From Promicromonospora sp. Populi (lineage in GTDB: Bacteria; Actinomycetota; Actinomycetes; Actinomycetales; Cellulomonadaceae), in contig NZ_CP163528.1 in assembly GCF_041081105.1 (NCBI RefSeq), positions 4,712,001-4,776,000 on the forward strand: a stretch of 64,000 bases of DNA, written 5' to 3'. Numbering within the stretch: the stretch's first letter is position 1; each line of letters starts with the position of its first letter. Both the position numbers and the translations under genes were made by a program. The notes under the pieces were generated by a model that saw only the letters and a program-made list of their open reading frames with translations, did no database searches and was not told the DNA's origin. Positions 5,001 to 42,810 of the stretch are shown here, piece after piece.

Positions 5001-5636
5001 CTACTCGGCCGGGGTTGTCGAGCGTTCCTGGCGCCAGGCGCGGATGCCCGCGACTATCGACGCCGCTATCACCACACCGGCCACTATGTACGCGATCGGT
5101 CGTACCGACGGGTCCGACGCCGCGAAGTACCCGAGCACCGTGATCAGCACCGCCCAGCTCAGCGCCCCGAAGATGTTCGCCGTCAGGAACCGCCCGTACG
5201 GCATGCGGGTCACCCCCGCGATGACCGGCACGAACACCCGGGCCCACGGCATGTAGCGGCCGATCACCACGGACCACCACCCGAACAGGTCGTAGAACTT
5301 CTCGGTACGGACCACCGCGGCCCGCACCCAGCGGCCCTTCCGCGACTCGAGGTACGGCCGCCCGTAGCGGCGCCCCAGCAGGAACGCGACCTGGTCGCCC
5401 GCCACCGCGGCGATACCGACGCCGATCGCGAGCACCCAGATATCGATGCGGTCGGTGCTGCCGGCCACGATCCCGGCGCCGAACAGCAGGCCGTCCCCGG
5501 TGAGGAACGGGATGAAGACGCCCACGAAGAACGCGGTCCCCACGAACACGAGGCCCCAGACGACGAGGTAGAACGCGAGGGGTCCGAGCACGTCGAGCCA
5601 GCCGGCGACGTCGTCGGACACCGTGGTTCTGATCAT
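5001..5636 (-). CDS. DedA-family membrane protein
   Basis: 211 aa, standard length. DedA signatures are present: PFLTGDGLLFGAGIVAG, the GDQVAFLLGRRYGRPYLE segment, and the amphipathic RYMPWARVFVPVIAGVTRMPYGRF stretch with its conserved arginines. DedA/VTT proteins act in the cytoplasmic membrane as phospholipid (undecaprenyl phosphate or phosphatidylethanolamine) transporters/flippases. A GGAGG site precedes the start. Confidence 0.9.
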   Translation of the reverse strand: MIRTTVSDDVAGWLDVLGPLAFYLVVWGLVFVGTAFFVGVFIPFLTGDGLLFGAGIVAGSTDRIDIWVLAIGVGIAAVAGDQVAFLLGRRYGRPYLESRKGRWVRAAVVRTEKFYDLFGWWSVVIGRYMPWARVFVPVIAGVTRMPYGRFLTANIFGALSWAVLITVLGYFAASDPSVRPIAYIVAGVVIAASIVAGIRAWRQERSTTPAE

Positions 5637-29343: not shown

Positions 29344-31554
29344 TCAGAAGGGTGGCTCCTCGGGGAAGAGTCGAAGCAGCTGTTCGGCAGTCGGTGGTAC
29401 GGCGCTAGGTCGATTGCCCGGTGGTGGTTGTCCGAGGCGTGCTCGGAGGTCGGCAGCGAGGCTGGTGATGTCGTTGCTCACGTGTGCGGTCGTGACTCCG
29501 GTCGTACCGCCGGTAGTAGCTCCGGTCCTGGGGCCGGTAGTAGCGCCGGTTGTGACCTCGGTTGTGACCTCGGTTGTGACTCCGGTCGTGACCCCGCTCG
29601 TGAGGCCGGTCGTGACTCCGGTTGTGGGGTCGGTCTGGGTGGGTGGTCGGGTGTAGGTGTGGCCGGTGGGTGCGGTCCAGGTGGTGATGCCGGTGTTGGG
29701 GTCGCGGGTGACGTCCCAGCCGTGGTGGGTTTTGGCGAGGTGGTGGGCGCGGCATAGGGGTTGGAGGTTGTGGGCGCGGGTCTGTCCCGGGGTGTCGGGT
29801 GGTTGGGTGGTGGTGTCGAGGTTGTGGTTGTAGGGGTGGATGTGGTCGAGGTCGGACCATCGGGCGGGTCGGTCGCATTGGGGGAAGCAGCAGGTCTGGT
29901 CCCGGGCTGTGACCGCGGCGCGCAGGAGCTTGCCGGGTTGGTAGGTGGTGGTGGAGTAGTCGGTCAGGATCCCGGTGGTGGGGTCGGTGAGCAGGCGTTG
30001 CCAGGTGGCGTCGGTCGCGATCCGTGCTGCCAGGTCCGCGGGAATGGGCCCGTAGCCCTCCAGATGGCCAGGAGTGTTGTCGAGCCCGAGGAGTGTGGTG
30101 GCCGCGATGGTGACCCGGATCTGGGGCTTGACCGGGATGACCCGGATGGTGGTGCCGCCACAGGTGCATCCACCGCAGGTGCACCCGGTCGCGGGCACGG
30201 TGGTACGTGGCAGGGCGGGTCCCTCCGGGGTCCCGACAGTGTCGATGCTGCCCGTGCCCGTGCCCGTGCCACTGGTGCCACTCGTGTCTGTGTCCGTGCC
30301 GCTGGTGCTGGTGTCACTCGTGCTGGTGCTGGTGCTGGTGCTGGTGCTGGGTGGGGTGGTTTCGGGTGTGCATTCGGGGTGGGGCGGGACGATGATGCGG
30401 CCGGTGGTGATCGCGACCAGGGCGTCGGCGCGGGCTTGGGTCAGGGTGCGGGTGGTTCCGGGGGTGCGGCGCAGGGTGTGGGCGGCTTGCTCGATCGCGT
30501 CCCAGACTGCTGCGGCGTCGGTGGCGGGCAGGTGCGCGCTGATCCAGGCCATGGTGTTCTCGGCGGGGTCCAGGAACACTGCACGCCGGCTCGTGGCGTG
30601 CCGGGTGGTCTCTTGGGTGCCGTTGTGTTCGCTGGCGAAGGCCTTCATCTTGTCGCGTAGCCACCGGCGGGTGTGGTCGGGGGCTTGGGGCAGGTAGCGG
30701 GTGATGGCCTCCTCCCGCTGCTCGGTGGTGAGGGGGTTGCCGCTGCGCAGCAGGATGTCGGCCTTGGCGGTGTCGATGACGGCGTTGTGCAGGGCGTTCA
30801 TGACCTGGGGGTGCTCGGCCAGGCCCGCGCCGCGGGCCATGTGCTTGTTCGCCTCGCCCTGCGGGACTCGTAGGCGGGCGCTGATCTCCGCGGCCGCGGC
30901 GTTGTGCTCCTCGGTCCAGCCCCGGCGACGGCTGATCTCGCCCAGGGCACGTGACTGCATTGCTGTGGCCCACGAGACCACCTCCTGCCACCGGGCCGCG
31001 ACATCCAACAGCACACCGTCATCGGTGTCCGCGACCTCCACACGAGCCAGCACGTCGACCAGTGCCGCACCGAGCGGGAGACGCTCCAGGATTGCCGCAT
31101 CGACCGAGCGAACGACGCCGGTCCGACCCGCCGCACTGGCCGCACCGACGCTACTAACAGGTTCGGCGACCGCAGGATCAGTACCAGCAAGGTCAGTACC
31201 AGCAAGGTCAGTACCACGAGGCTCGCTGACGGCAGTTTCGGTGGCGGCGGGTGCGGTATTCGCGGGGTCCGTGACAGCAGGATCGGTGGCGGCGGGGGTC
31301 GTCGTCGTGCCAGCGTGAGTGACCTCGCCGCCCGGTCCGTGACCGGGCCACGTCACCATCGCCGCGGGCAGGACGCCCTCCTCGTCCAGACTGACCGCAT
31401 TCCAGCTCAGGGTGGGAAGGCTTGCGCTGGATGGCAGGGACGTGGCCGACGCCCCAGGGTGCTGCGTGGCGGCCACGCCGGTCGCGAACGCGCGCATCAG
31501 GGACCGTTCCACAGCAGCAGCCAGGCTCGTGCTGATGGCTCGTGTCCTGTCCAT
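29344..31554 (-). CDS. DUF222/HNH endonuclease-domain protein (13E12-type)
   Basis: 736 aa from ATG 31554, with GGAAGGGGGAG upstream. Residues 150-400 are DUF222 (ISRRRGWTEEHNAAAAEISARL through AVFLDPAENTMAWISAHLPATDAAAVWDAI). Near residue 560 an HNH motif follows: CCFPQCDRPARWSDLDHIHP...NLQPLCRAHHLAKTHHGW. Several low-complexity stretches interrupt it: TDLAG units near residue 115, a Ser/Thr run near 410, and a VTT-rich tail of about 50 residues. Function is unknown; mycobacterial relatives form the 13E12 repeat family. A LexA-like box lies upstream. Confidence 0.88.
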   Translation of the reverse strand: MDRTRAISTSLAAAVERSLMRAFATGVAATQHPGASATSLPSSASLPTLSWNAVSLDEEGVLPAAMVTWPGHGPGGEVTHAGTTTTPAATDPAVTDPANTAPAATETAVSEPRGTDLAGTDLAGTDPAVAEPVSSVGAASAAGRTGVVRSVDAAILERLPLGAALVDVLARVEVADTDDGVLLDVAARWQEVVSWATAMQSRALGEISRRRGWTEEHNAAAAEISARLRVPQGEANKHMARGAGLAEHPQVMNALHNAVIDTAKADILLRSGNPLTTEQREEAITRYLPQAPDHTRRWLRDKMKAFASEHNGTQETTRHATSRRAVFLDPAENTMAWISAHLPATDAAAVWDAIEQAAHTLRRTPGTTRTLTQARADALVAITTGRIIVPPHPECTPETTPPSTSTSTSTSTSDTSTSGTDTDTSGTSGTGTGTGSIDTVGTPEGPALPRTTVPATGCTCGGCTCGGTTIRVIPVKPQIRVTIAATTLLGLDNTPGHLEGYGPIPADLAARIATDATWQRLLTDPTTGILTDYSTTTYQPGKLLRAAVTARDQTCCFPQCDRPARWSDLDHIHPYNHNLDTTTQPPDTPGQTRAHNLQPLCRAHHLAKTHHGWDVTRDPNTGITTWTAPTGHTYTRPPTQTDPTTGVTTGLTSGVTTGVTTEVTTEVTTGATTGPRTGATTGGTTGVTTAHVSNDITSLAADLRARLGQPPPGNRPSAVPPTAEQLLRLFPEEPPF

Positions 31555-33495: not shown

Positions 33496-35003
33496 TTAGA
33501 CCTGCGCAAGCCCGTCGAGCACCCCCTCCGCGATCTCGAGGTCGCCCCGCAGGTCCCGGTCGGTGTTGTCGGCCGGCAGCGCGTCCGCCAGATCGAGGGC
33601 AGCACGCAGCGGTCCCGCGGGCAGTGCGACGTCGCGCTGGCGGAGCAGCCGCACGGCCCCGACGAGCTCGCAGGCGAGCAGCGTCCGGTAGGCGACGACG
33701 GCGCGCTCGGACTGGGCGACCGCCTGCGACGCGAAGCTGGCGTCCTCCTCGGCGCCGCGGGAGAGCACCACCGACCCGAGCGAGGCGGGCTGTGCCGCCG
33801 CGCGCAGCTCGCCGAGTGCGCTGGCGGCGACGTACTCGACCATCATCAGCCCGGAAGCGCCGTCCGGGCCCGTGGCGAGAAACGGCCGGAGCCCGGTGAG
33901 GCCGGGCTCGTTATGCATCCCGATCCGGGACAGCACAAGGGGCCCGGTCTGGGCCAGGGCGAGATTGCACCCGTCGAGCGCCAGGCCGAGCGGCACCTGG
34001 TGGAAGGCGCCGTGGTGGACCACAGCCTCGCCGGCCAGGTCGAACAGCGGGTTCTCCTGCGCGGCGCCGAGCAGGCGCCCCGCCAGCCGGCCCAGCTCGC
34101 CGAGGGCGTGTGCGAAAGCGCCCTGGCTGATCGGGAACGCGCGCAGCCCGTAGGCGTCCTGGATCCGGGCGGGCCGGGGCCGGCCCCGGGCTCGCCGGAG
34201 GCCCCCGGCTCGCCGGAGGCCCCCGGCCCGCCGGAGGCCCCCGGCCCGCCGGAGGCCCCTGACCCGCCGGAGGCCGCCGGGACCGCGAGCAGCCGCCGGA
34301 CGCGCTCGGCCACGGTAACGACGCCCGGCGCAGCCGCGGCGCGCACCGCGGCGGCGGAGAGCACCGAGGGATTCCCGTCGAGCGCCCGGAAGCTGAGCGC
34401 GTACACGACCGCGGCGGCCCGGTCGAGCCGGTCGAGGGCGTCGACCACGAGGCAGGTGCGGCCGATGGTGAGGGCGTTGGAGCTGATGAACGGCAGCGCG
34501 CTGTCGCTGCCCCAGGGCGCCATGGGCTCGAGCGGCCCGGCGGCCGGCCGCTCGCCCATGAGGGTCAGGGCGGTGCCGGCCAGGGCGCCGAGGTCGCCGG
34601 TGCCGATCGAGGCATGCACGCGGACGGTGGGCAGGGTGTTGCCGTTCAGCATCCCTTCCAGCGCGTGGAGCACCGCCGGGTCGACGCCGGAGCCGCCCGC
34701 GCAGAGCTGGTTGAGCCGGACGGCGAGCATCGCGCGGACCGCCCGTTCGGGCAGCTCCGGGCCGGCGTCCACGGCGTGGCTGCGCAGGAGCCGGAGCCCG
34801 TGCGCATCGTCGTCGACGGCGGCGGTCTTGTTCGCGCCGACGCCGGTCGTCCGGCCGTAGGTGGGGACCTCGGCGCTGAGCCGGCGCGTCAGCTCGTGCG
34901 CCCGGCCGACGGCGTCGACGGCGGTATCGGGGACGCGCACCCGCCCGCCGTCGGCGGCCGCGACCACGTCCGCCAGCCCTGCGCTCCCGCCAAGCTCGAT
35001 CAT
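33496..35003 (-). pseudogene. MIO-less aromatic ammonia-lyase-fold protein, single frameshift
   Basis: Start ATG 35003 follows GGGAGAGGAAA. The first half (TYGRTTGVGANKTAAV, QLCAGGSGVDPAVLHALEGM, VVYALSFRALDGNP) and second half (RIQDAYGLRAFPISQGAF, FLATGPDGASGLMMVEYVAA) are collinear with histidine ammonia-lyase, about 500 aa in all. They lie in different frames: a one-base deficit near 34150-34190 follows five 18-base repeats (GASGGP-like, 34190-34280). Where lyases have GSVGASGDLAPL, this reads ASIGTGDLGAL: the Ala-Ser-Gly that cyclises to MIO is missing. MIO-independent relatives such as ergothionase eliminate trimethylamine. Divergent from a betaine-type transporter. Confidence 0.78.
34190..34281. 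repeat. 18-bp coding tandem repeat (about 5 copies)
   Basis: Units of the form CCCGGCCCGCCGGAGGCC repeat about five times, encoding Gly-Ala-Ser-Gly-Gly/Glu-Pro on the minus strand inside the lyase gene. They expand a loop just before the conserved Q-D-x-Y segment, immediately upstream of the frameshift. Confidence 0.9.
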
Positions 35004-35076
35004 CGGCGTTTCCTCTCCCGAAGCCCGTCCGTGCCGTATCGCCCCTGCCATTGTGCCGGTCAGCGCAGTGCCGTCT

Positions 35077-35162
35077 AGTGGCAAACGTGTTTTACACAGT
35101 GGCAACCTTCCGGCGATCTGCCCAAAACTCCCGGCCCCTACGTTCGCAACTACGTTCGCAAC
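35077..35162. promoter_or_regulatory. Repeats in the lyase/IclR divergent region
   Basis: AGTGGCAA occurs at 35077-35084 and 35098-35105 (21-bp spacing, two helical turns), enclosing GTGTTTTACAC. Further on, TACGTTCGCAAC is present twice in tandem (35139-35150 and 35151-35162), about 50 bases before the IclR start. These are plausible IclR-regulator sites controlling both directions. Confidence 0.45.
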
Positions 35163-35213
35163 GGGACGTGGTGCAGAGCACAGCGAGCCCCCGACGCGTG
35201 GAGGGACCAGGAC

Positions 35214-35894
35214 ATGGCAGAAGCCGGTACCAGGACGGCCGAGCGGGTGCTCGCGCTCCTCGCCGTGGTCTGCGAGCAGGGGCGGGCCAACCTCTCCGAG
35301 GCCGCCCGCGCCACCGGGCTCGCGCCCAGCACCGCCCTGCGGCTGCTGCGCACGCTGGAGGGCGCGGGGTTCGTCCGCCGGGACGAGGACGCCTCGTTCA
35401 CGCCGGGCGGGCGGATCATCCAGCTCGGCGCGCAGGCCCTGAGCAACGAGTCCCTCATCGACCTCGCGCGGCCCGCGATGAAGACGCTCGCGGACGCGAC
35501 CGCCGAATCCGTGTACCTCAGCAGCGTCGGCCACCACGAGACCGCGCTCTACATCGCCATCGTTGAGGGCTCGCACTCGATCCGGCACCGGAGCTGGGTG
35601 GGTGGCACGATCCCGCTGGACGGCACGGCCGCGGGGCAGGCCCTCACCGGCGCGATCCCGGCCGGTTCCTGGGCGCTGGTCCGGAGCGGCGTCGAGAGCG
35701 ACGTCACCGCGATCGCCGCGCCGATCCTGGTGGGCCGGCGCGTGGTCGCCGCCATGAGCCTCGTCGTCCCGAGCTACCGCCTCGGCGATGACGACGCGAC
35801 CCGCTACGGGCGACTGCTCGCCGCCGAGGTCGCCACCATCTCGGCGGAGCTCGGCGGCGCCGCCGGTCAGGAACTCGAAGGAGCGACCGCATGA
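35214..35894 (+). CDS. IclR-family transcriptional regulator
   Basis: 226 aa. Residues 1-65 are the winged helix-turn-helix (TRTAERVLALLAVVCEQGRANL, ATGLAPSTALRLLRTLEGAGFVRR). Residues 75-220 are the IclR effector domain (MKTLADATAESVYLSSVGHHETALYIA, GGTIPLDGTAAGQAL, ITAIAAPI-like VTAIAAPILVGRRVVAAMSLVVP). IclR proteins sense small carboxylates. It overlaps the transporter ATPase start (ATGA), so it is the first gene of the transporter operon, and diverges from the lyase. Confidence 0.92.
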   Translation: MAEAGTRTAERVLALLAVVCEQGRANLSEAARATGLAPSTALRLLRTLEGAGFVRRDEDASFTPGGRIIQLGAQALSNESLIDLARPAMKTLADATAESVYLSSVGHHETALYIAIVEGSHSIRHRSWVGGTIPLDGTAAGQALTGAIPAGSWALVRSGVESDVTAIAAPILVGRRVVAAMSLVVPSYRLGDDDATRYGRLLAAEVATISAELGGAAGQELEGATA

Positions 35895-37015
35895 TCACGT
35901 TCGAGCATGTCTCCAAGGTGTACCCCGACGGCACCCACGCGGTGCACGACCTCAGCTTCGAGGCGCCGAGCGGCCGGCTGACCGTGCTCGTCGGCCCTTC
36001 GGGGTGCGGCAAGACGACGTCGATGCGGATGATCAACCGGCTGATCGACCCGACCGAGGGGGTAGTCAGCCTCGACGGCCAGGACACCCGGTCCGTCGAT
36101 GCGATCGAGCTGCGCCGCAAGATCGGCTACGTCATCCAGAGCGCCGGCCTGTTCCCGCACCGGACCGTCGTCGACAACGTCGCCGCGCTGCCCCGGCTGC
36201 TCGGCGCGGGCCGGAAGGAGGCGCGGACCAACGCGCTGGAGCTGCTGGCGAAGGTCGGCCTGGACGAGCGCTACGCCCTGCGCTACCCGTACCAGCTCTC
36301 CGGCGGGCAACAGCAGCGTGTGGGTGTCGCCCGGGCGCTCGCCACGGACCCGCCCTTCCTGCTCATGGACGAGCCGTTCAGCGCCGTCGACCCCGTCGTC
36401 CGCACCCAGCTCCAGGACTCGTTCCTCCAGCTGCAGCGGGACATCGGCAAGACGATCGTCATGGTCACCCACGACATCGACGAGGCGCTCAAGCTGGGTG
36501 ACCAGGTCGCCGTCTTCCGGGAGGGCGGGACGCTGGCCCAGGTCGCCACGCCGGCCGAGCTGCTCGCCCACCCGGCCGACGCCTTCGTGGCGGACTTCGT
36601 GGGCGCCTCTCGCGGTTACCGCGCCCTGGGCTTCGTCGAGGCGACGGCGACCGTTCGCCTCGCCGACGAGGTGACCGTCCGGCTCGGCGCCCGTCCCGCT
36701 GATCTCGTCGCGGTCGATTTGACGGGCCCAGGGGAGCACGGCGCCTGGTGCGTAGTCGTCGACGACGGCGGCGCGCCGCTCGGGTGGGTGGACCTGCGGG
36801 CCGCGGGCGACGTCGTCGAGGAGCACCACATCGACTTCTCCGGGACGGTCGCCCGGGTCGACGGCAGTCTCCGCGACCTGCTGGATGCCGCCCTCTCCAG
36901 CCCCGTCGGGCGCGGCCTCGTGGCCGGACCCGACGGCCGGCTGAGCGGGAGCGTCACCGCGGACGAGGTGCTCCGGCACATCGGCCGCGGCCGGGAAGCG
37001 GGGGTGCCGTCATGA
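35891..37015 (+). CDS. OpuC/EgtV-type quaternary-amine ABC transporter ATPase
   Basis: 374 aa. Walker A GPSGCGKTTS near residue 37, Q-loop IGYVIQSAGLFPH, signature YQLSGGQQQRVGVARALA near residue 136, Walker B FLLMDEPFSAVDP, and H-loop VMVTHDIDEAL. The last 120 residues form a tail in the place of the CBS-like regulatory domain of OpuCA, though I cannot confirm the fold. It drives uptake of glycine betaine, choline, carnitine, ergothioneine or related compounds. Starts inside the IclR stop and overlaps the permease. Confidence 0.92.
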   Translation: MITFEHVSKVYPDGTHAVHDLSFEAPSGRLTVLVGPSGCGKTTSMRMINRLIDPTEGVVSLDGQDTRSVDAIELRRKIGYVIQSAGLFPHRTVVDNVAALPRLLGAGRKEARTNALELLAKVGLDERYALRYPYQLSGGQQQRVGVARALATDPPFLLMDEPFSAVDPVVRTQLQDSFLQLQRDIGKTIVMVTHDIDEALKLGDQVAVFREGGTLAQVATPAELLAHPADAFVADFVGASRGYRALGFVEATATVRLADEVTVRLGARPADLVAVDLTGPGEHGAWCVVVDDGGAPLGWVDLRAAGDVVEEHHIDFSGTVARVDGSLRDLLDAALSSPVGRGLVAGPDGRLSGSVTADEVLRHIGRGREAGVPS

Positions 37016-37662
37016 TCGCCGACTGGCTCGCCGACAACGCCGTCCGCATCGGCGAGCTCACCGCGTGGCACGCCCTGCTCAGCGTCATCCCGACGGTGCT
37101 CGGCCTGATCGTCGCGATCCCGCTGGCCTGGTGGGCGTCGCGCTCGGCGCGCATCTACCCGCTGATCGTCGGCGCCTCGGGGCTGCTCTACACGGTCCCG
37201 TCGATCGCGCTGTTCGTGCTTCTGCCGCAGGTCCTGGGGACCAGGATCCTCGACCCGCTCAACGTCGTCGTCGCGCTGACGCTCTACAGCATCGCGCTGC
37301 TGGTCCGGGTCGTCGCCGACGGGCTGGCGTCCGTGCCGCACGACACGGTCCAGGCCGCGACGGCGATGGGCTACCGCCCCTGGCAGCGGCTCGTGCACGT
37401 GGAGCTGCCCGTGGCCGTGCCCGCGATCGGCGGCGGCCTGCGCGTGGCGGTCGTCTCGAACGTGAGCATCGTGACGATGGCGGCCCTGCTCGGCATCCCG
37501 CAGCTCGGCTCGCTCTTCACCGAGGGGTTCTCCCTGCGGCTCACCCTGCCGATCGTTGTCGGGATCGTGCTGTGCCTGGTGCTGTCGGTGGTCCTGGACG
37601 TGCTGGTCCACCTGGGCACCCGCGCGCTGACCCCGTGGCAGCAGCGGACGGAGACAGCATGA
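37012..37662 (+). CDS. OpuCB/ProW-type ABC permease
   Basis: 216 aa with five or six helices. LLYTVPSIALFVLLPQVLGTRILDPLNVVVALTLYSIALLVR-style helices and the EAA loop (VPHDTVQAATAMGYRPWQRLVHVELPVAVPAI) are typical of osmoprotectant permeases of the OpuCB/YehW group. ATGA-coupled on both sides. First of two membrane subunits. Confidence 0.92.
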   Translation: MIADWLADNAVRIGELTAWHALLSVIPTVLGLIVAIPLAWWASRSARIYPLIVGASGLLYTVPSIALFVLLPQVLGTRILDPLNVVVALTLYSIALLVRVVADGLASVPHDTVQAATAMGYRPWQRLVHVELPVAVPAIGGGLRVAVVSNVSIVTMAALLGIPQLGSLFTEGFSLRLTLPIVVGIVLCLVLSVVLDVLVHLGTRALTPWQQRTETA

Positions 37663-38447
37663 ACATCGTCGGCTGGTTTCTCGACCCCGCCCACTGGACC
37701 GGCGCGGACTCGATCCCGGTCCAGGTCGGCTACCACCTCCTGTACTCGGGCATCGCGCTGCTCATCGCGCTCGCGATCGCCGTCCCGCTCGGCATCTTCA
37801 TCGGCTACACCGGCCGCGGGGAGCTGTTTGTCGCCGGCACCGTCAACGCCCTGCGGGCGCTGCCGACGTTCGGCCTGCTCGTCCTCGTCGTCATGCTGGT
37901 CGCGCCGCACATCGGCTCCCAGCTCGCGTTCGTCGGGCCGACCATCGTGGTCCTCGTGCTGCTCGCGGTGCCGCCGATCCTGTCGGGGACGGTCGCGGGG
38001 ATCCAGGGCGCGGACCCGGGCGCCGTCGGCGCGGCCCGCGCGTCGGGGTACACGCGCCCGCAGATCCTGCTGCACGTCCAGCTCCCGTGCGCGCTGCCGC
38101 TGTTCCTGTCCGGGGTCCGCAGCGCCACGCTGCAGATCGTCTCCACCGCGACCGTCGCCGCCTACGTCTCCCTCAGGGGCCTCGGCCGGTACATCATCGA
38201 CGGCCGGGCCTCCTCCGACTACACGCAGATGGCGGCCGGCGCGATCCTCGTCGCCGTGGTCGCCCTGGTGCTGGAGATCGCGTTCCTCGCCCTGGGCCGC
38301 GCGGTCGTCTCGCCCGGCCTGACCAGGGCCACTGCCCCCAGCTTCCGGCGGGCCAGGACCGTTCGTCCAGGCCTCGTCGCTCCCACCCGTCCCGGTTCCC
38401 CCGGTTTCCCCAGCAGCCCCGGCAGCACCAGAGAGGCAACATCATGA
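37659..38447 (+). CDS. OpuCD/ProW-type ABC permease
   Basis: 262 aa from ATG 37659. Hydrophobic helices include LLYSGIALLIALAIAVPLGI and ALRALPTFGLLVLVVMLVAP; the EAA loop is DPGAVGAARASGYTRPQILLHVQLPCALP. The C-terminus carries a Pro/Ser/Gly/Arg-rich cytoplasmic tail of about 40 residues that is not typical. Pairs with the preceding permease and is ATGA-coupled to the binding protein. Confidence 0.91.
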   Translation: MNIVGWFLDPAHWTGADSIPVQVGYHLLYSGIALLIALAIAVPLGIFIGYTGRGELFVAGTVNALRALPTFGLLVLVVMLVAPHIGSQLAFVGPTIVVLVLLAVPPILSGTVAGIQGADPGAVGAARASGYTRPQILLHVQLPCALPLFLSGVRSATLQIVSTATVAAYVSLRGLGRYIIDGRASSDYTQMAAGAILVAVVALVLEIAFLALGRAVVSPGLTRATAPSFRRARTVRPGLVAPTRPGSPGFPSSPGSTREATS

Positions 38448-39373
38448 AGCGACCCTCCGTTCGTCCGTCCCGCCCCGCTATCGCGGGTCTCGCCGGCCTC
38501 ACCCTGCTCGCCCTGACCGCCTGCGCCGGCGGCGACCCGCTCAGCACGGACGCCGGAGGTGCCGGGGATCCGGGCTCCGGCGTCACCGTCGGCTCCGCGG
38601 ACTTCCCGGAGAGCCAGCTGCTCGCGACCATCTACTCGCTGGCCCTGCAGGACGCCGGCGTCGAGGTCGAGGAGCGGTTCAACATCGGCAGCCGTGAGGT
38701 CTACGTCGAGGCGGTGCAGGACGGCTCGATCGACCTTGTCCCGGACTACTCCGGCGCCCTGCTCAAGTACCTCGACACCGAGTCCACAGTGAGCAGCACC
38801 GAGGACGTGCTCGCCGAGCTGGACGACGTCCTGCCCGACGACCTCACCGTGCTCGACGCCTCGACAGCGCAGAACAAGGACGTGCTCGCCGTGACCCGCG
38901 AGACGGCCGAGGAGTACAACCTCGAGACCATCTCCGACCTCCAGCCGGTGGCCGGCGAGCTGCTCCTCGGCGGGCCGCCGGAGTGGCGGACGCGCGTCAA
39001 CGGCGTCGTCGGCCTCGAGGACGTCTACGGTCTGGAGTTCCAGGAATTTGTCCCCCTGGACGCCGGCGGGACGCTCACCATGACGGCGCTGACCTCCGGC
39101 CAGGTCCAGGTGGGCGACCTGTTCAGCACCGATCCGGGCCTCGACCAGAACGATCTTGTCGCGCTGGAGGACGACCAGTCGCTGTTCGCCGCCGAGAACA
39201 TCCTGCCGCTGGTCCGGTCGGACATGGTGGACGACACCATCACCACGGCGCTGAACGAGGTGTCCGCGGCCCTGACCACGGAAGACCTGATCGAGATGAA
39301 CGGCCGCGCAGGCACCGGCGAGTCCCTCTCGGACATCGCTACCGACTGGCTGACCAACGCGGGCCTGATCTGA
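38444..39373 (+). CDS. OpuCC/EgtU-type substrate-binding lipoprotein
   Basis: 309 aa. A lipoprotein signal ends in LLALTAC (lipidated Cys27). The mature domain is the OpuAC/OpuCC fold: VTVGSADFPESQLLATIYSLAL, ERFNIGSREVYVEAVQDGSIDLVPDYSGALLKYL, and NKDVLAVTRETAEEYNLETISDL. Family members cage quaternary ammonium groups with aromatic residues. Its substrate should be the lyase substrate if the divergent genes form one pathway. The stop falls in a 14-bp tandem repeat. Confidence 0.92.
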   Translation: MKRPSVRPSRPAIAGLAGLTLLALTACAGGDPLSTDAGGAGDPGSGVTVGSADFPESQLLATIYSLALQDAGVEVEERFNIGSREVYVEAVQDGSIDLVPDYSGALLKYLDTESTVSSTEDVLAELDDVLPDDLTVLDASTAQNKDVLAVTRETAEEYNLETISDLQPVAGELLLGGPPEWRTRVNGVVGLEDVYGLEFQEFVPLDAGGTLTMTALTSGQVQVGDLFSTDPGLDQNDLVALEDDQSLFAAENILPLVRSDMVDDTITTALNEVSAALTTEDLIEMNGRAGTGESLSDIATDWLTNAGLI

Positions 39374-39999: not shown

Positions 40000-41118
40000 A
40001 TGGGCCTGCTGGACAAGATCAAGGGCGAGCTTGTTGACATCGTCGAGTGGCTCGACGACACCCGGGACACGATCGTGTGGCGGTTCCCCCGCTACGAGAA
40101 CGAGATCAAGATGGGCGCCCGGCTCGTGGTGCGCGAGTCGCAGACCGCCGTCTTTGTCAACGAGGGCCAGATCGCCGACGTGTTCGAGCCCGGCACGTAC
40201 ACGCTCGAGACGCAGAACCTGCCGGTGCTCTCGACGCTCAAGGGCTGGATGCACGGGTTCCACTCGCCGTTCAAGGCCGAGGTGTACTTCGTCAGCCGGC
40301 GGCAGTTCACCGACATGAAGTGGGGCACCAAGAACCCGATCATGATGCGGGACCCGGAGCTGGGCATGGTGCGGGTGCGCGCCTTCGGCGCGTTCGCCGC
40401 CCGGGTCAGCGACCCGCAGAAGCTCCTGCGCGAGCTGGTCGGCACCGACTCGCGGTTCAGCACCGACGAGGTGCACGAGTACCTGCGCCAGAACGTGGTG
40501 AGCCACGTCGCGAGCGTGCTCGCCTCGTCCGGCATCCCCGTGATCGAGCTCGCCGCCCACCACGGCGACCTCGGCGACCAGCTCGCGACCCGCCTCACCG
40601 AGGAGCTGGCTGAACTGGGCATCGCCGTACCCAGCTTTGTCATCGAGAACGTCTCGCTGCCGCCCGAGGTCGAGGAGGCGCTCGACAAGCGCACGTCCAT
40701 GGGCATCGTCTCCTCCGGGACGGTGGGCAGCATGGCCGCCTTCCAGCAGTTCCAGGCGGGCGAGGCGATGGAGGCCGCGGCCGAGGGCGGGGCCGAGGGC
40801 GGGGGCAGCGCCGGCGCGGTGATCGGCATGGGGCTGGGCCAGTCGGTGGGCAACGCGATAGTCCCGCCCACCCAGTCTGCTCCCGCCCCCGCTCCGGCGG
40901 CGGGCCCGCCGCCGCTGCCGGGTTGGTACCTGGGTAACGGTGGTGCGCAGATCGGCCCGTTCGACGACGCCGCACTCGCGGGCCAGGTCGCCGCGGGCAC
41001 CCTCACGCCCGGCACCCTGATCTGGCGCGCGGGCATGGCCGGCTGGGAGCCCGCATCGTCCGTGCCCGACGTCGCCAAGCACCTCGGCGCCACCCCGCCG
41101 CCGCTCCCGCAGGTCTGA
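40000..41118 (+). CDS. SPFH-domain protein with C-terminal GYF_2 domain
   Basis: 372 aa. Residues 1-250 form an SPFH/band-7 core of the virion-core-protein-like (YdjI) type: LVDIVEWLDDTRDTIVWRFPRYENEIKMGARLVVRESQTAVF, AEVYFVSRRQFTDMKWGTKNP, FVIENVSLPPEVEEAL. A Gly/Ala and Pro-rich linker leads to residues 310-372, a GYF_2 domain (PGWYLGNGGAQIGPFDD, LIWRAGMAGWEPA). Probably scaffolds membrane-associated complexes. First of three clustered genes, two bases before the zinc-ribbon gene. Confidence 0.88.
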   Translation: MGLLDKIKGELVDIVEWLDDTRDTIVWRFPRYENEIKMGARLVVRESQTAVFVNEGQIADVFEPGTYTLETQNLPVLSTLKGWMHGFHSPFKAEVYFVSRRQFTDMKWGTKNPIMMRDPELGMVRVRAFGAFAARVSDPQKLLRELVGTDSRFSTDEVHEYLRQNVVSHVASVLASSGIPVIELAAHHGDLGDQLATRLTEELAELGIAVPSFVIENVSLPPEVEEALDKRTSMGIVSSGTVGSMAAFQQFQAGEAMEAAAEGGAEGGGSAGAVIGMGLGQSVGNAIVPPTQSAPAPAPAAGPPPLPGWYLGNGGAQIGPFDDAALAGQVAAGTLTPGTLIWRAGMAGWEPASSVPDVAKHLGATPPPLPQV

Positions 41119-41120
41119 CG

Positions 41121-42317
41121 ATGGTGGAGCTCACCGACGGTGGTCAGACCGCCCACCGGGCCTATCCGTGCGAGCAGTGCGGGGCCAGCGTCGAGTACGT
41201 GGCCGGTACCGGCGCGCTGACCTGCCCGTACTGCGGGCACGCGCAGCAGGTCGCCGCGCCCGCCCGGGAGGTGCGCGAGCACGACTTCGCGACGCTCGCC
41301 GCAACGCCCCGCGCCGCGGCTCCCGCCACGCACGACTACCGGTGCGGCACCTGCGGCGCGATCACGACCAGCGACCACCTGTCCCAGAAGTGCGGGTTCT
41401 GCGGCTCGCCGATGGTGGCCGAGGTGGAGAGCCTCGGGCTGGTGGAGCCGGAGGCCGTGCTGCCCTTCGAGGTCGACCGGGCCTCGATGCAGGGCGCCCT
41501 GCAGCAGTGGGTGCGCTCGCGGTGGTTCGCGCCGTCGGCCCTGAAGAAGGTGGTCTCCGCCGACCAGGCGCACGGCGTCTACCTGCCGCACTGGACGTTC
41601 GACGCGCGCACCCGGTCCGACTACACCGGGCAGCGCGGCGAGCACTACTGGGTCACGGAGACGTACACCACCACCGACTCCGAGGGCCGGAGCCAGACCC
41701 AGACCCGGCAGGTGCAGAAGACCGCCTGGTACCCGGCGTCGGGAACGGTGGCGCGGGACTTCGACGACGTGCTGGTCACCGGGACGGCCCGTGTCATGCC
41801 GGAGCACCTGGCCAAGCTCAGCCCGTGGCCGCTGGACAAGGCGCAGGCGTACCAGCCCGACTACCTCGCCGGCTACGAGACCCTGCGGTACGACGTCGAG
41901 CCGGAGGCCGGGCTGGAGGTGGCCAAGCGCAAGATGGCGCCCGTCATCGAGAACGACTGCGTGCGGGACATCGGCGGCGACGTACAGCAGGTGCACCACG
42001 TGGACACCGGCTACGCCGACGTGACGTACAAGCTCCTGCTGCTGCCGGCGTGGATCGCCACCTACCTGTACGGCGGCAAGCCGTTCCAGGTGCTGGTCAA
42101 CGCGCGCACGGCCGAGGTCGTGGGGGAGCGGCCGTGGTCGGCGTGGAAGATCACGCTCACCGTGCTCGCGGGGCTGCTCGTGATCGCGGGCATCATCTGG
42201 GCGGTGGTGGCGGCGCAGGACGGCGGCGCGGCAAGCTCGGTCTACTCGGAGCTCGCGCTCAGCGGAGATCCAGTGACCCGTGAGAGCGTGGGCTACTACT
42301 CGGATCCGGTGGTCTAG
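41121..42317 (+). CDS. Zinc-ribbon protein with C-terminal membrane anchor
   Basis: 398 aa. Two zinc ribbons lie at the N-terminus: CEQCGASVEY...CPYCGH (residues 15-50) and CGTCGAITTSD...CGFCGSPM (residues 75-100). A middle domain of about 220 residues (VYLPHWTFDARTRSDYTGQRGEHYW, YDVEPEAGLEVAKRKM) follows, then one membrane helix near residue 345 (ITLTVLAGLLVIAGIIWAVVA) and a short outer tail. Function unknown; co-occurrence with the SPFH protein and the TFIIB-finger protein suggests one complex. Confidence 0.85.
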   Translation: MVELTDGGQTAHRAYPCEQCGASVEYVAGTGALTCPYCGHAQQVAAPAREVREHDFATLAATPRAAAPATHDYRCGTCGAITTSDHLSQKCGFCGSPMVAEVESLGLVEPEAVLPFEVDRASMQGALQQWVRSRWFAPSALKKVVSADQAHGVYLPHWTFDARTRSDYTGQRGEHYWVTETYTTTDSEGRSQTQTRQVQKTAWYPASGTVARDFDDVLVTGTARVMPEHLAKLSPWPLDKAQAYQPDYLAGYETLRYDVEPEAGLEVAKRKMAPVIENDCVRDIGGDVQQVHHVDTGYADVTYKLLLLPAWIATYLYGGKPFQVLVNARTAEVVGERPWSAWKITLTVLAGLLVIAGIIWAVVAAQDGGAASSVYSELALSGDPVTRESVGYYSDPVV

Positions 42318-42381
42318 GAACCGCACACCCGGCCCGTCCGTTGGCTGACCAGCAGACGACGACCGCAAGGAGACCCTCACG

Positions 42382-42810
42382 ATGCTGTGCCCCATCGACC
42401 AGACCACGCTCGTCATGTCCGAGCGCAAGGGGATCGAGATCGACTACTGCCCCACGTGCCGTGGCGTGTGGCTCGACCGTGGTGAGCTCGACAAGGTGAT
42501 CGACCGCTCGGTGGAGAACGAGATCGCCGCGGAGAACCGCCCGGGCGCTCCCGTCGCCCCGGCAGCCCCCGCGCCGCAGGCTCCGCCCGCGCCGAACCCG
42601 GTGCACGCCGGCCCGGCCTACGGCTCCCCGCAGCCGGCCTACGACCCGCGGTACGACGACCGGCGTCGCGACGACGACCGCCGCTACGACAGCGACCGGC
42701 GGTACGACGGCGACCGCCGCTACGACTCGTACAGCGGCGACCGCCGGCACGACCCGCGCTACAAGAAGAAGCGCAAGGAGTCCTTCCTGGAGGACCTCTT
42801 CGACTTCTGA
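42382..42810 (+). CDS. zf-TFIIB domain protein with Asp/Arg/Tyr repeat tail
   Basis: 142 aa. Residues 1-45 are a TFIIB-type zinc finger: MLCPIDQTTLVMSERKGIEI, CPTCRGVWLDRGELDKVI. A Pro/Ala linker is followed by a highly charged tail in which RYD/DRRYD units recur about six times, ending in KKKRKESFLEDLFDF. The tail is probably disordered and the final segment resembles a short binding motif. Preceded by AAGGAG. Third member of the SPFH cassette. Confidence 0.85.
   Translation: MLCPIDQTTLVMSERKGIEIDYCPTCRGVWLDRGELDKVIDRSVENEIAAENRPGAPVAPAAPAPQAPPAPNPVHAGPAYGSPQPAYDPRYDDRRRDDDRRYDSDRRYDGDRRYDSYSGDRRHDPRYKKKRKESFLEDLFDF

Follow-up and report, generated by a model that had tools for sequence, protein, structure and literature searches.

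A MIO-less histidine ammonia-lyase homologue linked to an OpuC-type importer, a candidate module for hercynine catabolism in actinobacteria

A 64,000-nucleotide stretch of the Promicromonospora sp. Populi genome (contig NZ_CP163528.1, positions 4,712,001 to 4,776,000; hereafter the window) encodes a homologue of histidine ammonia-lyase (HAL, or HutH) that lacks the tripeptide from which the electrophile 4-methylideneimidazole-5-one (MIO) is formed, and that stands divergent from an IclR-family regulator and a four-gene ATP-binding cassette (ABC) importer. Lyase and importer recur together in many actinobacterial relatives, often beside genes of the Hut route, and we lean, with restraint, towards the reading that the module imports hercynine and that the MIO-free lyase eliminates trimethylamine from it to give urocanate. 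Hercynine is the betaine precursor of ergothioneine and is made by fungi and actinomycetes.

Results

Organization of the locus

The host genome is a single 5.22-Mb contig and falls in a genus group common to Promicromonospora soli, P. panici and P. sp. AC04. The lyase gene (PF00221) occupies the minus strand at 33496-35003 and diverges from iclR and the importer genes, with 4-base ATGA overlaps at all four junctions of the series IclR-ATPase-permease-permease-lipoprotein. This is the arrangement given by the initial annotation, which had described a MIO-less HAL-fold gene opposite an ATGA-coupled operon, and each gene was found in its place:

33496..34170, minus strand: C-terminal part of the lyase, in a different frame (PF00221, 121.5 bits)
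34182..34280, minus strand: 18-bp GC-rich tandem repeat, 5.5 copies, coding for a linker; the frame changes at or beside it
34281..35003, minus strand: N-terminal part of the lyase, ATG at 35003 (PF00221, 145 bits)
34581..34613, minus strand: ASIGTGDLGAL in the place of the MIO loop, read from the sequence
35065..35105, no strand assigned: operator-like stretch TTGCCACT-N13-TTGCCACT between lyase and iclR, found by alignment; putative regulatory site
35214..35894, plus strand: IclR-family regulator (PF09339, PF01614)
35891..37015, plus strand: ABC ATPase of the ProV/OpuCA type (PF00005; 299 bits for TIGR01186 proV, under the cut-off of 326.6)
37012..37662, plus strand: ABC permease A (PF00528)
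37659..38447, plus strand: ABC permease B (PF00528)
38444..39373, plus strand: substrate-binding lipoprotein (OpuAC/ProX fold)

Alignment of the divergent regions showed the operator-like stretch to be near-identical in three Promicromonospora and in Antribacter.

The active site lacks the MIO tripeptide

The HAL/aromatic lyase fold is retained, and the loop ASIG-TGDL is one residue shorter than the G-S-x-G-(A/C)-S-G-D of MIO formers. The Ala/Cys-Ser-Gly tripeptide of MIO-dependent HAL, phenylalanine ammonia-lyase (PAL) and tyrosine ammonia-lyase (TAL) is absent, which bears out the earlier claim that the motif is replaced and that no MIO can arise from Ala-Ser-Gly. Of 62 actinobacterial relatives, 60 have threonine in the position of MIO, and the HutH-common residues Tyr49, His77, Gln258, Arg264 and Glu395 are retained in 60-62 of them; these counts cover 62 of the 63 lyases of the loci described below, that of L108 being left out, and one of the 62 is cut at its N-terminus.

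Two further lyases, in L169 (G169:C12, a Microbacteriaceae genome) and L170 (G172:C8, Paenarthrobacter histidinolovorans), carry GSIG-ASDL or GSVG-SSDL, a shortened loop without Ala-Ser-Gly, and possibly represent a third MIO-free family to judge from their loops.

The importer, and in many cases Hut genes, accompany the lyase in relatives

A scan of named genomes returned 66 loci, of which three ergothionase-like ones (L114, L115 and L117) were excluded; the remaining 63 include loci cut by contig ends. Identity floors were 45% for the ATPase and HutH, 38% for IclR and LacI, and 60% for formaldehyde dehydrogenase. The module ATPase is present in 54 of the 63 loci, across eleven named families, the substrate-binding protein (SBP) in 50 and IclR in 36, whereas none of 20 stand-alone canonical hutH loci contains the module IclR, ATPase or SBP (one unrelated ATPase matched at 36%); five of these control loci are shorter, because of contig ends or because they were taken shorter. 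Gene-order conservation, suggested at the outset as a check, thus speaks for the pairing of ATPase and lyase. In L060 the ATPase and SBP lie beyond the hut genes. A Streptomyces sp. genome (G174) bears a second MIO-less lyase with an ABC importer, the hut genes lying about 6 kb off (L171, G174:C3), and also a lyase copy without the importer (L093).

Of the 63 loci, 26 encode HutU, one of them as a remnant; these span eight named families and show several gene orders. HutF is encoded in 23, HutI in 20 and an amidohydrolase in 23. Linkage of HutU, HutF and HutI to the lyase is therefore a feature of relatives; in the window's genome the three genes lie elsewhere, adjoining a canonical MIO-type HutH (GSLGCSGDL). 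Profiles confirmed hutI, hutF and hutU in L057 and hutU in L086 and L090. The three HutU tested reached 876-912 bits for TIGR01228 and stayed under the cut-offs for thiourocanate hydratase (627-665 of 930 bits) and S-methyl-thiourocanate hydratase (692-714 of 880 bits). Catabolism of ergothioneine and S-methyl-ergothioneine (Ert), compared through models NF058530, NF058531 and NF058540 only, resembles the present system in urocanate-hydratase-type chemistry, going by the model names, but HutU and the amidohydrolase here fall under the cut-offs. In Antribacter, a member of the window's bacterial family, tblastn gave the order lyase / iclR-ABC-hutU-amidohydrolase-hutF-hutI; together with a hutU remnant in P. 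soli, this array suggests loss of the hut part in Promicromonospora.

Exactly one HutU was found in 28 of 31 genomes, and by coordinates it lies about 10 kb or less from the MIO-less lyase in 15 of these. A separate HutH-level match (585 bits or more, assigned by score, loops not being read singly) occurs in 27 of 30 genomes; the HutH matches of R. jostii are fragments under 300 bits and others of 357. Canonical HutH shares a locus with the module in 11 of the 63, and two Microbacteriaceae genomes (G169 and G170) have HutU in the module and no canonical HutH.

Other neighbours are restricted to fewer loci. EgtA and EgtD, the latter the hercynine-making enzyme, are both encoded in the flanks of eight loci (seven of Actinomadura, one of a metagenome-assembled genome), one of each being confirmed over the cut-off; the window's genome has no EgtD over the cut-off (best 38 bits). 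In all four Rhodococcus loci (L102-L105) a mycothiol-dependent formaldehyde dehydrogenase (S-(hydroxymethyl)mycothiol dehydrogenase; profile on L102 only) diverges from the lyase, and in L102 it is followed, by profile, by genes for a metallo-beta-lactamase (MBL)-fold hydrolase, an FdhF/YdeP-type oxidoreductase and FdhD. A cysteine-dioxygenase-like gene is present in 13 of the 63 loci (eight Actinomadura, two Saccharopolyspora, three others), and a LacI regulator in the same 13; PF05995 was confirmed for two of these genes (L088, 12578-13120; L118, 9332-9964).

Counted at E <1e-100 (next best 4e-23), the lyase family occurs in 6 of 150 genomes of the bacterial family; it occurs in 4 of 13 genomes of the genus and, at class level, in 21 of 296 genomes and 11 of 115 genera, the class-level counts being by score with loops not read.

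The lyase family is distinct from HutH and ergothionase

In a 45-row tree the lyase family formed one clade (27 rows, 100/100) and the ergothionases another (10 rows, 100/100), with HutH apart from the lyase family. The phylogenetic comparison with ergothionase and HAL asked for by the initial annotation thus places the lyase outside MIO-dependent HutH, and the P. soli orthologue scored 205.5 bits against the HutH equivalog TIGR01225, short of the cut-off of 539.15. The MIO-free lyase family and the ergothionase clade joined at 99/91, but with three motif stretches removed the join appeared in 14 of 300 bootstraps, so a common origin of the two MIO-free groups is not established. For the trees the MIO residue (X) was deleted from three PDB sequences and one translated row was trimmed; the second trees exclude L053_4.

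The lyase shares with ergothionase (Treponema denticola, PDB 6s7j/6s7q; Burkholderia sp. HME13) the HAL fold, a MIO loop that is one residue short, the motif GVGxN(K/R), S/C-N/S-A replacing N-G-T, and the equivalents of Tyr53, His83 and Glu411. It differs at Lys383 (to Tyr), Gln382 (to Glu), Glu142 (to Thr) and Leu55 (to Arg), and its linked partner is HutU by profile instead of thiourocanate hydratase. Lys383, which we take to have a catalytic role in ergothionase, is invariant in all 10 ergothionase-clade rows, whereas 60 of the 62 actinobacterial lyases have Tyr; Glu142 is kept in nine of the 10 rows and is Thr in 60 of the 62. Given these two replacements, ergothionase orthology does not apply. 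The likeness to ergothionase proposed earlier is accordingly confined to the loop and GVGxN(K/R), since the family has its own clade and the sister grouping depends on motif columns. With HutH the lyase has in common the fold, several substrate-side residues and downstream Hut genes, but it is without Ala/Cys-Ser-Gly. As judged from these comparisons, the lyase is a separate actinobacterial clade, neither HutH nor ergothionase.

The binding protein

The window lipoprotein carries an OpuAC domain and has the OpuAC/ProX fold of OpuC/ProX binding proteins, and this, together with the tight linkage, upholds the earlier assignment of an OpuC-type importer to the lyase. EgtU/EgtUC are the closest solved binding proteins by sequence, with the same fold and with E375 and R379 retained, but the window SBP is a lipoprotein of its own, whereas EgtUC forms one domain within a longer permease protein, and K242, I243, G244, T275, T296, Y341 and Y443 are replaced. 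K242, I243, G244 and F293, whose roles in EgtUC are described in PMC9732360, are A, D, F and Y in the window SBP; the same paper reports about 100-fold weaker binding for the EgtUC mutant G244F. The retained E375 and R379 are not diagnostic because the E375 equivalent matters also in the glycine-betaine protein AfProX (PMC9732360). At the cage positions F293/Y341/Y419/Y443 the window SBP has Y/D/F/E, and relatives have D with E, Q or A at the two acidic positions. An EgtUV-type ergothioneine importer, as first proposed, is not supported, given A, D and F for K242, I243 and G244 and D and E at two cage aromatics.

The reading frame of the window's lyase is split

The window's lyase is not one open gene: its two PF00221 pieces lie in different frames, and the linker encoded by the 18-bp repeat differs in length among relatives. 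Four relatives have orthologues that read through in a single frame. The N-terminal half is 83-90% identical to these four, with a ratio of nonsynonymous to synonymous substitution (dN/dS) of 0.14-0.31, and the C-terminal half 82-85% identical with 0.20-0.27; an intact orthologue pair gave 0.045/0.187. Purifying selection acts on both halves, so the frame break is either recent or an assembly indel. It is possible, though we doubt it, that in the window's genome alone, irrespective of what the family does, the lyase has become a pseudogene in a decaying module. The two frames across the 34182-34280 repeat would fit such decay, as would the state of the P. soli module, next to which lie a remnant of HutU and a HutH-like gene lacking Ala-Ser-Gly; however, selection on both halves is at the level of the intact pair, and GC-rich repeats are prone to assembly indels.

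The P. soli HutH-like gene lies beside the module in L053 (3798-5333) and has the MIO loop GSVG-Y-LTA, Ala-Ser-Gly-Asp being gone; the remnant next to it (5336-5584) is 82 residues of HutU. Elsewhere in the window, 29344-31554 holds a 736-residue open reading frame with Ser/Thr-Gly-Thr repeats, an HNH-like C-terminal stretch and no Pfam match, which presumably resembles 13E12-type repeat proteins. At 40000-42810 an SPFH/Band 7 protein with a C-terminal GYF_2 domain is followed by two zinc-ribbon-like open reading frames.

Discussion

Proposed pathway

We propose that the OpuC/ProX-type importer takes up histidine in trimethylated form, hercynine (histidine betaine) being the likeliest candidate, and that the cytosolic lyase would then eliminate the alpha-nitrogen as trimethylamine in a base-assisted 1,2-elimination without MIO, leaving urocanate; MIO may be dispensable since a quaternary ammonium leaves without electrophilic activation. 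The searches made found no enzyme for this removal of trimethylamine from hercynine. Urocanate would then be degraded by the usual Hut enzymes (HutU, HutI, HutF), whose genes adjoin the module in many relatives and lie at another site in the window's genome. IclR would control both arms from the divergent region; product sensing by IclR, put forward in the initial annotation, is conjectural, and what the sequence offers on it is the conserved operator-like stretch. A linked pathway that begins at urocanate, a quaternary-amine-type importer and a leaving group independent of MIO together point to hercynine. With a single HutU in 28 of 31 genomes, one enzyme would serve the products of both HutH and the MIO-less lyase, and since a HutH-level match in 27 of 30 genomes already serves histidine, the lyase is not simply a histidine enzyme. 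EgtA and EgtD in the flanks of eight loci are a further, independent hint. The Rhodococcus formaldehyde dehydrogenase, with FdhF/YdeP and FdhD of L102, would fit oxidative demethylation of trimethylamine. PMC7653990 describes hercynine as the trimethyl histidine en route to ergothioneine, and its reference list cites hercynine work in mycobacteria, fungi and Actinomycetales.

Several observations weigh against hercynine. Nine of the 63 loci are without the ATPase (two of these nine sit on contigs about 4 kb long), the 20 control loci were chosen with canonical hutH apart from the module (19 from lyase-bearing genomes), and the window's own lyase is split. At its four cage positions the window SBP has two aromatic residues, Y and F, and two acidic ones, D and E, and so lacks the four-aromatic cage. 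SBPs from genomes that lack the lyase show a similar D-x-D signature; the pocket therefore does not identify a trimethylammonium ligand, and a protonated amine would fit the two acidic residues no less well. Where canonical hutH shares the module locus, the importer could serve histidine. Linkage to EgtA/EgtD is almost wholly an Actinomadura trait, and that to the formaldehyde genes is limited to four closely related Rhodococcus species; either may go back to a single event. HutU could accept thiourocanate too. No trimethylamine-using gene turned up, no search having been aimed at such genes. In view of the acidic cage, the D-x-D of lyase-free genomes and the 11 loci with hutH, we place hercynine only slightly ahead of an even chance.

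Alternative substrates

The initial annotation had named ergothioneine, hercynine or another trimethylammonium amino acid as substrate, of which hercynine is now favoured; ergothioneine is disfavoured, since the three linked hydratases tested are HutU by score and not thiourocanate hydratase. Import of ergothioneine or its sulfonate, with the lyase as an ergothionase giving thiourocanate and trimethylamine, is improbable also in view of the Lys383 and Glu142 replacements and the missing EgtU-specific K242, I243 and G244, the last being the site of the weak-binding G244F mutant (PMC9732360). A sulfur-first route in actinobacteria, in which the cysteine-dioxygenase-like enzyme would oxidise the ergothioneine thione to give hercynine, which a new MIO-free hercynine trimethylamine-lyase family would pass to the histidine pathway, is an unlikely extension; if true, ergothioneine producers would recycle ergothioneine and non-producers would eat it.

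The acidic SBP residues would instead hold an amine if histidine or a protonated-amine derivative were imported and the lyase were a MIO-free ammonia- or alkylamine-lyase. The SBP family mostly has Asp at 339 (Asn in the window) and 341 and E or Q at 443, nearly all members retain R275 and R379, two genomes have HutU without canonical HutH, and MIO-independent side reactions of PAL have reportedly appeared in print. Efficient ammonia elimination from L-amino acids in the HAL fold is nevertheless known to depend on MIO, a HutH-level enzyme is already present in most genomes, and the importer is absent from all 20 stand-alone canonical hutH loci; we regard this substrate as unlikely. Least probable is a general osmoprotectant importer placed beside the lyase by accident: the OpuAC/ProX fold is tied with broad betaine binders, but the ATPase is retained across eleven families and absent from the controls.

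Implications

Among the matches listed, lyase homologues that carry a name are called histidine or aromatic amino acid (ammonia-)lyase, so annotation would mislead in many genomes. If hercynine is the substrate, two or more families of MIO-free trimethylamine-lyases share the HAL fold. A dedicated importer and a MIO-free lyase would give hercynine a catabolic fate, and the module would connect ergothioneine turnover with histidine utilisation and add a source of trimethylamine.

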